This document shows positions 46,655-50,086 of a stretch of 64,000 nt of DNA, piece after piece. This DNA comes from Fimbriimonadaceae bacterium (lineage in GTDB: Bacteria > Armatimonadota > Fimbriimonadia > Fimbriimonadales > Fimbriimonadaceae). The number at the start of each line of letters is the position of its first letter. The stretch's first letter is position 1. The position numbers and the translations under genes were made by a program. Where the stretch lies: the NCBI GenBank assembly GCA_026129685.1, contig JAHCHO010000006.1, forward strand, positions 1 to 64,000. The letters run 5' to 3'. The notes below the pieces were generated by a model, which was not told the origin of the DNA, did not search any database, and saw only the letters and a list, made by a program, of their open reading frames with translations.

Positions 46655-46954
46655 TCAGCGGCCGTACGCGAACGCCGCCCCGAGCAATCCCAAGTAGGCC
46701 AGCGACGCGAGCCTACAGGCTCGCATGACCGCCGGCCGGTCCAGCCGGGCGTGTCGAGCCAGGATCGCCGCCGCGATCAGAAGCGTCGCGAACTTCGCCG
46801 CCGCGAAGACGACCTCACCGGAAGCCAGCAAGGGCCGCATCAGCGGATTGACCTCGACGATCAGCCCGTTCGCGTGGAGCCACACCGTCATCCCGAGATC
46901 GAACAGCCCGATCGCGAGAAGCACCGTGAAACTGCTGGGCAAGGTGATCCGCAC
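46655..46954 (-). CDS. Small DUF5658-like membrane protein
   Basis: A 99-residue protein from GTG 46954 with three predicted membrane helices: FTVLLAIGLFDLGMTVWL, VVFAAAKFATLLIAAAIL and LASLAYLGLLGAAFAY. The pattern LIGLFDxxMTxWLxxNGxxExNPLM is that of DUF5658 integral membrane proteins. Function unknown. Its 5' part overlaps the 3' end of the D-Ala-D-Ala carboxypeptidase gene by 140 bases on the same strand, and its stop directly abuts the M14 stop. Confidence 0.7.
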   Translation of the reverse strand: MRITLPSSFTVLLAIGLFDLGMTVWLHANGLIVEVNPLMRPLLASGEVVFAAAKFATLLIAAAILARHARLDRPAVMRACRLASLAYLGLLGAAFAYGR

Positions 46955-48209
46955 GGCTCCAGAGTAGCGATCCCCCGTCCTCTTGCCATGTCCCTTTTTC
47001 CAGGTCCCCGATCAGGCGATCCTGCACCTCGCGTGCCTTGGCGGCCGAACACCCGTAGTGGTTCATGACGATGGACACGACGTAGCCTTTGCCGTCCGCC
47101 CCGGTGACGAACCCGCTCAGCGCCGAAACCATGTCCAAGGTGCCCGTCTTCCCCTGGAACCGGCTCCCCTGCAGTCGATTCGTCAGCGTGCCCTTCCCGG
47201 GCGCCGCCATGCCCTCGCGGTACTTCGAACCCCAGGGCTGGCGGGCGGTCCACTCCAGCAGTCCGACGAGCGCGCGCGACGTGACCAGGTTGTGCCGGCT
47301 CATTCCGCTCCCGTCCTGGGGCGACAGGTCGTTCGGGTCCAGGCCCGCCACTTCCGTCAAGAACGTCTTCAGCCGCTTTGCCGCTTCAGCGTAAGACCCC
47401 GTCCCCGCCGCCAGTAGCAGGAGATGCTCCGCAATCTGGTTGTCGCTCTTCACCAGGCATTCCGAGACGATTTCGCGCAAGGGCGGGCTCTCCAGAACGA
47501 GGTCCGGCCCCCGGCTCGGTACCTCGGTGACGAGCGTCATCGCCCCGCCTCCGAGGACGGTCGCCGCCGCCCGATCAGGCTCGTGCAACGCCAGGGTGTC
47601 GAGACGCGTCTTTGTCCGGGGCCACTGGCCCCGCACGATCGCCGTCTGCCGGAAGACGTCGAATTCCACCTTCGGCCCCCCGGGTGCGCCGAACCACTTT
47701 GCCGTCGCCCCGTAGCTCTCGGGCACGAAGAAGAGCCTTCCCGCATCCCCCCAAAGCTCGAACGAAGAACGATCCACCGTGAACGCGGTCACCGGCGCAG
47801 CGTACTTGTTCGCCAGGTCGTCCCACTCCCACGATGGCGGGGTGAGAGGTCGGTACGCTTGCCGCACCGCCACCGCCACCCTTCCCTTCAACCCCAGACG
47901 CTGCCGGGCCTCCAGCAGCCGAGCGTGCGTCATCGTGGGATCACCCTCAGAGTCGACGACGACCCGTCCCTTCTCCTTCCACAGACGGGTCTTCAAGGTC
48001 CGATCGGCGCCGAGCACGTGCATCGCAAACGTGGTCGAAAGCAGCTTCTGGTTGCTTGCCGGCACGACCCGCAGGTCCGGGCTGCGAGCATAGACCACCT
48101 CTCCGCCGAGTTCCTTCACCACAACCCCGACCACCGCGCCCTTCATCTCCGGGCCGGCGAGAATGGCGTCGAAGGAACTCGCGAGCGTCACAACCAGGAG
48201 CGGCCACAC
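46815..48209 (-). CDS. dacB: D-alanyl-D-alanine carboxypeptidase/endopeptidase (PBP4, S13 family)
   Basis: The 464-residue exported protein has a signal peptide (VWPLLVVTLASSFDAILA) and the three penicillin-binding motifs: S52-x-x-K55 (PASNQKLL), SDN (VKSDNQIAEH) and KTG (FQGKTGTLDMVS). It trims peptidoglycan stem peptides or crosslinks. GTG 48209 starts at the signal peptide. The C-terminal 50 residues after NHYGCSAAKAREVQDRLIG run into the DUF5658 gene in another frame and are poorly conserved in character, so the true end may be earlier (a lost stop or a sequence error). Confidence 0.85.
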   Translation of the reverse strand: MWPLLVVTLASSFDAILAGPEMKGAVVGVVVKELGGEVVYARSPDLRVVPASNQKLLSTTFAMHVLGADRTLKTRLWKEKGRVVVDSEGDPTMTHARLLEARQRLGLKGRVAVAVRQAYRPLTPPSWEWDDLANKYAAPVTAFTVDRSSFELWGDAGRLFFVPESYGATAKWFGAPGGPKVEFDVFRQTAIVRGQWPRTKTRLDTLALHEPDRAAATVLGGGAMTLVTEVPSRGPDLVLESPPLREIVSECLVKSDNQIAEHLLLLAAGTGSYAEAAKRLKTFLTEVAGLDPNDLSPQDGSGMSRHNLVTSRALVGLLEWTARQPWGSKYREGMAAPGKGTLTNRLQGSRFQGKTGTLDMVSALSGFVTGADGKGYVVSIVMNHYGCSAAKAREVQDRLIGDLEKGTWQEDGGSLLWSRADHLAQQFHGASRDRAVRSRDDGVAPRERADRRGQSADAALAGFR

Positions 48210-48219
48210 GCCGCCGACC

Positions 48220-49182
48220 TTACCCTTCGCCGCGCCGAGAGCGAAACTCCGCCGCCCGCTCTTGGAGATTCCTGAAGTAGTCCGTCTCGGTGATCTCCGC
48301 CACGTCCTTTGCCTTCTTCCCCGCGTCGATCTCGACCCGCAGTTCCCTAACTTGGCGCCGCAGGCTCTCTTCCCTGGCACGGACCTCGTCCGCCATCTGG
48401 GCGAACACCCTCGCCAATCCTCCGAGCGCGTCGTCGCGCCCTTTCACGCGGTCGAGCGAGCCTAACTGGAAAGCCCCTCGCTCCACCGCCCCCGCCGCCT
48501 CCGCGATCTGGGCCACCGCCTGCAGGTAGTCCAGTTCACGGTCCCGCGCCCGCTTTTTGCGCAGGGCCGCATCGAGCCGAGCCCGCAGGAGCACCGGGTT
48601 GAACGGCTTGGGTAGATAGTCTTCCGCCCCCGCCTCGATGCACCGGACCACGCTTGCTAGTTCGTCGAGCGCCGAAACCATCAGCACCGGCGTGTCCCGC
48701 GTCGCCGGATCTGCCTTCAGTCGCTCCAACGTGCCGTACCCGTCCAGATTCGGCATCATCACATCGAGCAGGATCGCGTCGAAATCGCCGCCCGCCGCGA
48801 GTTCGAGCGCCTCCAAACCGTCCTCGGCGGTCACGACCTCGTGGCCTTGGCGCACCAGGTGCCGGGCCAGCAGATCGCGGTTCTCGGCCAGGTCGTCCAC
48901 CGCTAGCAACCTCCCCGTCTCGGAAGGCGCGCGTTCGCTCGATTGCGGTACGCGGAGGCGCTCGGTTGCCGGCCCCCTGGACCCGTCTTCCTTCCGCGCC
49001 GCTTCACCCCCAAGCAGCTCTTCGATCATCGCCAGCAGACGGTAACCCGCGTCACGAACGCGAACCACGTCGTCCGCCAGGACGTCGTGGCGTTCGCGCA
49101 ACTCCTCCAGCACCATCTCGCTGTAGCCGAGGATGACGGTCAGGGGGGTCCGCAGTTCGTGGCGAAGGTTGGCAAGGTCCAT
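48220..49182 (-). CDS. HisKA-receiver-coiled-coil protein without HATPase
   Basis: The 320-residue protein starts directly in a HisKA dimerisation domain (MDLANLRHELRTPLTVILGY, phospho-site H8), has no ATPase boxes, then a receiver domain (about 90-210) with D140 in AILLDVMMPNLDGYG and a YLPKPFN lysine, and ends in a coiled coil. The tail has VFAQMADEVRAREESLRRQV and then ELRVEIDAGKKAKDVAEITE and TDYF, a pattern I know from cyanobacterial and other signalling proteins. It may be phosphorylated by another kinase or passed phosphate internally. It precedes the dacB-like gene by 10 bases. Confidence 0.8.
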   Translation of the reverse strand: MDLANLRHELRTPLTVILGYSEMVLEELRERHDVLADDVVRVRDAGYRLLAMIEELLGGEAARKEDGSRGPATERLRVPQSSERAPSETGRLLAVDDLAENRDLLARHLVRQGHEVVTAEDGLEALELAAGGDFDAILLDVMMPNLDGYGTLERLKADPATRDTPVLMVSALDELASVVRCIEAGAEDYLPKPFNPVLLRARLDAALRKKRARDRELDYLQAVAQIAEAAGAVERGAFQLGSLDRVKGRDDALGGLARVFAQMADEVRAREESLRRQVRELRVEIDAGKKAKDVAEITETDYFRNLQERAAEFRSRRGEG

Positions 49183-49207
49183 TGCGGTCCGCCCAAGGGT
49201 AGCGCAT

Positions 49208-50086
49208 TCAGCCCAGTCCGATCGCCACGATCCCCGCCAGAATCGCGGTCGCCGCGACGTACTTCGCCGCCCCCGAGGGTTCGCCGAACAACCGCGCCCC
49301 CGCGTACACGCTGAACACGACCGACGCTGCTCGCAAGGGCACGACTACCGACAACGGCGCCATCCCCATGGCGACCAGGATCAGCAGGTAGCCCCCCGCG
49401 CACGCCAGCCCCGCCCACCCTAGACGCGCCGGCGTCACCGCCGGGGGAGCGACCGCCCAACCCATTGCTCGCATCGCGAACGCTTGGAGGACAAAGCCCG
49501 CTCCGAACGAGAGGCTTAGGTACAGGGCTGGGTTTGCGTGCGCGATGCCCTGCTTGTCCACCACCAGATACCCGGCCGACGCGAAGCCGGCGACCACCGC
49601 CAACCAGGCCGCCCGGCCCGGCACGCGTCCCGTCCCCAACTCCAGACGCGCGATCGCCAACGTCGCCAGGATCACGACCAACATCCCGATCGAGGCGAGG
49701 GCGGAGGGTCGCTCGCCGTAGAGCCAGACCCCGGCCAGGCACGCCGCGGCCGGCGCCACGCCGCGCACGATCGGGTAGGCCCGCGAGATCTCCCCTAGCC
49801 GATAGCCGGTGCCCATCGCGCAGTAGTACAGCGCGTAGAAGATGCCGCTCCCCGTCGCGAAGAGAACCACCTTCGGATGAAACCGCCCTCCCAACACCAG
49901 CCCGATGGGCAGGGCCGCCAACGCCCCGACCCCCTGCATCCAGAGCGAAAAGCGCACTGGATCGTCTGCCGCCTTGACGAGACTGTTCCAGAGGAGATGC
50001 AACGCCGCCGAAACGAGCACCAACACGACGGCAACGGCCACGCGCCCGTGATACCCGTTCCCGGCCATGGGCGCGCTCTTCGTCAC
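49208..50086 (-). CDS. EamA/DMT-family transporter
   Basis: The 292-residue protein has about ten membrane helices arranged as two EamA repeats (first near 15-140, second near 155-290, e.g. YLLILVAMGMAPLSVVVPLR). DMT proteins export or import amino acids, nucleotides or other metabolites; the substrate cannot be deduced. The start is GTG 50086 or ATG 50068. It is probably cotranscribed with the HisKA-receiver gene 25 bases downstream. Confidence 0.85.
   Translation of the reverse strand: MTKSAPMAGNGYHGRVAVAVVLVLVSAALHLLWNSLVKAADDPVRFSLWMQGVGALAALPIGLVLGGRFHPKVVLFATGSGIFYALYYCAMGTGYRLGEISRAYPIVRGVAPAAACLAGVWLYGERPSALASIGMLVVILATLAIARLELGTGRVPGRAAWLAVVAGFASAGYLVVDKQGIAHANPALYLSLSFGAGFVLQAFAMRAMGWAVAPPAVTPARLGWAGLACAGGYLLILVAMGMAPLSVVVPLRAASVVFSVYAGARLFGEPSGAAKYVAATAILAGIVAIGLG

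Follow-up and report, generated by a model that had tools for sequence, protein, structure and literature searches.

A gene on the minus strand of the 64,000-nucleotide stretch of Fimbriimonadaceae DNA analysed here (the window) encodes a signalling protein that has a HisKA phospho-acceptor hairpin and a receiver, and no kinase ATPase domain, raising the question of where the protein obtains its phosphate and to what it passes the signal. A preliminary description, made from the letters alone, suggested a phospho-relay scaffold, possibly linked to a membrane cyclase system. The reading favoured here, at a probability of about 0.58, is that a phosphorelay drives the protein, which serves a dedicated MinD/ParA-like ATPase as an input, acting via a C-terminal docking helix, and the signal is probably passed on to this ATPase rather than to a cyclase. 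The earlier interpretation was right on the missing kinase domain, and probably wrong on the output. The features of the gene are as follows.

48220 to 49182, minus strand: gene for the 320-residue HisKA-REC-HAMP-tail protein, stop codon included (open reading frame; Pfam)
49012 to 49176, minus strand: HisKA (DHp) hairpin, residues 3–57 (PF00512, E 1e-11; model helices 3–31 and 33–63)
49159 to 49161, minus strand: phospho-acceptor His8, within the hairpin (residue position)
48574 to 48906, minus strand: receiver domain, residues 93–203 (PF00072, E 6.8e-26; catalytic residues unchanged in all 53 aligned rows)
48763 to 48765, minus strand: Asp140 of the receiver (residue position)
48349 to 48519, minus strand: HAMP domain, residues 222–278 (hhalign 98.7%, E 3.3e-16)
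48229 to 48348, minus strand: conserved C-terminal tail, residues 279–318 (tail profile A2, AlphaFold2 model, relatives)
48274 to 48294, minus strand: ITETDYF tail signature, residues 297–303 (eight seed rows agree in AxITETDYF)

The start of the gene is fixed. The reading frame upstream of the ATG stays open for 54 further codons, with no ATG, GTG or TTG among them, and the EamA transporter gene that precedes it on that strand stops 25 bases short of the ATG; a longer start from the common start codons is thus not available. The protein therefore does begin close to the HisKA histidine (residue 8), as first described. A longer N-terminus in relatives, which the preliminary description had set against its own reading, is found in part: L033, L037 and L026 (the last judged from its frame) also start near the histidine, and others are longer or have two HisKA domains (L027, L028). 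The EamA gene, the gene under study and a Peptidase_S13 gene lie consecutively on the minus strand at 46815–50086 with short gaps, and may for these reasons form one transcript; their order is not preserved at the locus of a relative (L026).

At an E-value of up to 10, Pfam detected neither a HATPase nor a cyclase domain in the protein, and a hidden HATPase or a longer start, looked for in that search and in the upstream frame, was not found. The absence of the kinase ATPase domain thus holds, and extends to those HisKA-REC-tail relatives that were scanned (L027, L028, L034). Of the two parts that define a histidine kinase, the protein has the HisKA hairpin with its histidine, and lacks HATPase_c; of a response regulator it has the receiver, with an acid pair, a phospho-acceptor aspartate and a lysine. 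The residues for phosphotransfer are all present (HELRTP at 8–13, D96/D97, D140 and K192). The acid pair, Asp140 and Lys192 are invariant in all 53 aligned rows, bearing out the description of a normal receiver, and the phospho-acceptor histidine is absent from 7 of the 50 non-gapped rows of aligned relatives, a point against the reading favoured here. As the protein has no ATPase domain, its phosphate must come from another kinase, and this part of the original proposal stands, with a candidate phosphorelay encoded in the genome.

Behind the receiver, the C-terminal coiled coil first described was only partly upheld: the string ELRVEID...ITETDYF is real (residues 280–303), but the region opens with a HAMP domain. 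The HAMP assignment comes from hhalign comparison of the family alignment with HAMP segments taken from kinases and from proteins that bear the tail, a set of five segments of which only two (L195, L220) are from proteins scanned with Pfam. PF00672 exceeded its cut-off in a Rubrobacter homologue (L028), and did not match the window protein itself. With the alignment of HAMP and tail as query, a sequence search of the PDB returned only weak NarQ matches, to the HAMP part (E 0.008). The AlphaFold2 model, built from 53 aligned sequences (mean pLDDT 88.4), places in order the HisKA hairpin, a loose linker, the receiver, and helices 196–234 and 252–299 around a connector; the tail is modelled as a coiled coil that breaks at residue 300, followed by a final helix (301–318). 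The 50 Foldseek matches listed for this model are receivers, a result that bears on the receiver part alone, and NCBIfam yielded receiver-type models only, among the best 25 of 116 matches. The idea of a phospho-relay scaffold is correct in that the protein has no kinase domain of its own, and incomplete in that it leaves out the HAMP domain, a signal converter, and the docking-type helix at the end of the protein.

The HisKA-REC part recurs with other outputs. Its closest paralogue in the same genome (L002) is a HisKA-REC-Guanylate_cyc protein, 52% identical and devoid of the tail, and in Gemmatimonadota (L030, L033) HisKA-REC is fused to a protein kinase in place of the tail. Because a cyclase, a Ser/Thr kinase or a HAMP-tail can stand behind it, HisKA-REC appears to be an input cassette whose output can be exchanged. 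When relatives were sought among one genome per species, proteins that combine the tail with HisKA, REC or both were found in Armatimonadota (UBA2387), cyanobacteria, Rubrobacter, Thermoleophilia and Pseudonocardia, together with a REC-GAF-tail protein in a Nannocystaceae metagenome-assembled genome. In the window genome itself the tail is single-copy, with one profile match at E 8e-26 and the next row at E 0.24.

The tail is a module in its own right. A 50-residue profile, run over the cyanobacterial and actinobacterial genomes and all fetched loci, matched 57 distinct segments at the fetched loci, as a C-terminal peptide; in the window protein it reads VAEITETDYF..LQ. Its recurrence in cyanobacterial signalling proteins, as the preliminary description stated, was borne out by these searches. 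Input domains in the 21 tail proteins scanned with Pfam comprise dCache, sCache, Tll0287, CHASE2, PAS, GAF, cNMP_binding, HAMP and REC/HisKA, and 20 of the 21 have no Pfam catalytic domain, the exception being L226 (Pkinase). Cyclic-nucleotide-binding and REC, two of the partners first listed for this module, are among these inputs. The tail is not linked to cyclases, and is common to sensors with very different inputs. In some CHASE2 and cache types the short piece D-Y/F-F/L/Y-x-x-L-Q-x-K is present more than once. Five of 55 tail proteins hold at least two copies of the strict core pattern, with none expected from 200 shuffles; among other open reading frames, a set that includes overlapping copies of loci, two copies occur in 4 of 1766. 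Such repetition would be as expected of a binding motif.

What the tail does track is a MinD/ParA-like ATPase. In L028, L029, L031, L035 and L092 the first gene downstream of the tail gene encodes this ATPase, and the ATPases at these loci are 59–71% identical to that of Rubrobacter. They match PF13614 and PF01656, with a P-loop and a MinD-like fold; when modelled, the ATPase of L028 superposes on MinD structures with Z-scores of 16–17 over 200 residues at an rmsd of about 3.5, albeit from a model of mean pLDDT only 68.6 built on five sequences. The clade signature HS[FY]RGGTGKS is present in 42 of 45 sequences; it is missing from the ATPase match in G395, whose score is far lower, and the match in G355 is too weak to be listed. 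No match to the ATPase occurred in 50,697 phage records. The only ATPase gene of this type in the window genome (C12:26681-27430) encodes a protein 61% identical to that of Rubrobacter and is unlinked to the gene under study, a lack of adjacency that counts against an input-to-ATPase role.

The co-occurrence of the two is close. In profile searches of 146 cyanobacterial genomes the tail was found in 22 and the ATPase in 24 at 1e-35, and the 22 genomes with an ATPase match below 1e-90 are exactly the 22 with the tail. In Armatimonadota the tail and the ATPase each occur in two of 251 genomes, the same two, and are unlinked in both. Among 198 actinobacterial genomes, four have the tail and three the ATPase, with three in common, and among 72,556 plasmid records eight have the ATPase and six the tail, all six overlapping; a seventh plasmid pair, from Rhizobium jaguaris, has a weaker tail immediately before the ATPase. 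The exceptions are an actinobacterial genome (G254) with the tail and no ATPase match, and a plasmid of Nostoc UHCC 0870 with the ATPase and no tail match. Nominal hypergeometric probabilities, which ignore the relatedness of the genomes, are 1e-26 for cyanobacteria, 3e-6 for actinobacteria, 3e-5 for Armatimonadota and 1e-25 for plasmids. With a limit of 10 kb, and the split assigned by eye, 14 of the 22 cyanobacterial pairs are linked and eight are not; since these eight co-occur as well (nominal P 5e-13, relatedness again ignored), the association does not arise only from shared operons. Across 41 clustered loci the ATPase is the largest gene family, present in 28, with the next at seven, although ATPase or tail genes were the starting points for fetching these loci and the figure is favoured by that design. 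The tail also shows two of the features of an adaptor or activator of such an ATPase, as it is a short conserved terminal peptide and is encoded or co-occurs with the ATPase. The pairing is thus an association joined to a structural argument, and the interaction itself is putative. Literature searches, several of them broad word searches and covering few subscription papers, returned no description of it.

These data would also fit a tail that marks its owner as cargo, with the MinD-like ATPase positioning or clustering the sensors instead of serving as their downstream effector, in the manner of PpfA/TlpT or ParC/ParP for chemoreceptor arrays. Chemoreceptor clusters are described among the cargos positioned by some ParA-type ATPases (PMC10241942), and TlpT/PpfA is named among ParA/MinD ATPase-partner systems (PMC7993993). 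Some genomes (e.g. G353, G357) encode several tail proteins for a single ATPase, which suits cargo and effector alike. The inputs, however, include soluble proteins that lack any array-forming domain (cNMP, GAF, PAS), and we regard the positioning of sensors as an unlikely, if reasonable, explanation of the tail.

A phosphorelay scaffold or phosphotransfer protein serving a membrane cyclase system, with the tail as a generic coiled coil, would account for the intact HisKA and REC domains and for the HisKA-REC-cyclase paralogue in the genome. That paralogue is tail-less, however, and the tail is conserved residue by residue, follows the ATPase, and is single-copy in its own genome, leaving a cyclase scaffold distinctly improbable. 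A cyclase as the main partner was rejected, since it is the ATPase that the tail follows from genome to genome and the paralogue with a cyclase output has no tail; the membrane cyclase link first proposed is not supported. Slighter still is the likelihood that the two genes move together in a mobile cassette for some other cause, such as service to a third component, and that tail and ATPase make no mutual contact: some pairs are plasmid-borne and some lie near peptide-export genes, but no other gene family approaches the ATPase at the clustered loci (which, as stated, were fetched around ATPase or tail genes), and unlinked pairs co-occur too. That the gene is a decayed fragment of a histidine kinase, as its missing HATPase and short N-terminus might suggest, is barely credible given a confident structure model and the recurrence of this architecture, about 50% identical, across several phyla, where residues of receiver and tail are invariant.

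For the preferred reading, a phosphorelay-driven input to the ATPase, a candidate phosphodonor is suggested by Rubrobacter, in which one operon encodes, in order, a hybrid kinase, a single receiver, a HisKA-HisKA-REC-HAMP-tail protein, the ATPase and a permease-like protein. Relatives of the hybrid kinase (on C12; 57% over 497 amino acids) and of the single receiver (on C7; 80% over 120 amino acids) are encoded at separate places in the window genome, and, judging by sequence, these could serve the window protein, the cyclase paralogue, or both. The source of the phosphate, a switch through HAMP, docking of the helix and its consequence for the ATPase are each inferred. In this scheme another protein, a hybrid histidine kinase, would phosphorylate His8 and/or Asp140, directly or through the single-domain receiver, and phosphorylation of the receiver would alter the HAMP/coiled-coil dimer behind it. 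This may expose or re-orient the C-terminal helix (ITETDYF..LQ..A...R), allowing it to dock on the MinD-like ATPase (C12:26681-27430) and so to control either its ATP cycle or its cellular location.

The neighbourhoods of the ATPase genes hold several further observations. On a Deinococcus plasmid, a weaker relative of the ATPase profile that lacks the P-loop signature (L233:9389-10156) lies right after a tail gene, with SpoIIE phosphatase and STAS genes just upstream; its product is possibly a pseudo-ATPase paired with an active one. Two kinds of protein of little or no annotation adjoin the ATPase gene, one a small protein at five cyanobacterial loci, the other a large membrane protein (~860–970 amino acids) in Rubrobacter, Thermoleophilia and some cyanobacteria, for which Pfam gives almost nothing.

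L200:3130-3429, L204:6419-6736, L208:9375-9671, L217:6978-7325 and L218:7635-7979: protein of ~100 amino acids, cluster c6
L028:5998-8660, L029:3710-6610, L201, L205 and L210: large membrane protein, with distant amino-acid-permease similarity in L029

Several cyanobacterial ATPase genes lie near NHLP/Nif11 peptide-export, DUF7005 and cyclic-nucleotide-binding genes, on the basis of which peptide export is a possible target of the ATPase system in cyanobacteria. At L201, L205, L210, L219 and L236 the neighbours are DUF7005, cyclic-nucleotide-binding, HlyD-like and Peptidase_C39/NHLP ABC exporter genes.

A more general proposition, to which we give even odds, is that unrelated sensors (cache, CHASE2, PAS, GAF, cyclic-nucleotide and phosphorelay) converge via one docking helix on an RGGTGKS-type MinD-like ATPase as a common switch, in a system that has gone undescribed and of which the window protein is the two-component input. 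If so, two-component, cyclic-nucleotide and membrane sensors would have a general output in a MinD-type ATPase, distinct from DNA binding, from an enzyme product and from a flagellar switch, and the tail motif would tell which sensors feed the ATPase, including those beside the cyanobacterial peptide-export loci.

Among known systems, the HisKA-REC-cyclase proteins resemble the window protein in having HisKA-REC and no HATPase, and differ in having a cyclase where it has HAMP and tail. The HisKA-REC-HAMP-Ser/Thr kinase proteins of Gemmatimonadota share its HisKA, REC and next helical region, and have a fused kinase where it has the tail. Spo0B and ChpT, DHp-type proteins for histidine phosphotransfer, share a hairpin that has no working kinase domain of its own; they act as independent shuttles, whereas the hairpin of the window protein is fused to receiver, HAMP and tail. 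On the side of the ATPase, this clade has an arginine at the P-loop position where MinD has its signature lysine. The likeness to ParA/MinD systems (MinE, ParB, PomX, TlpT/PpfA, McdB) lies in the MinD fold and in a partner that is modular and ends in a short, conserved peptide: according to PMC7993993, modular partners of diverse architecture activate these ATPases via a short terminal peptide. The activating peptides known from that source are N-terminal and positively charged, whereas the tail described here is C-terminal, of mixed charge, and borne by many kinds of sensor.
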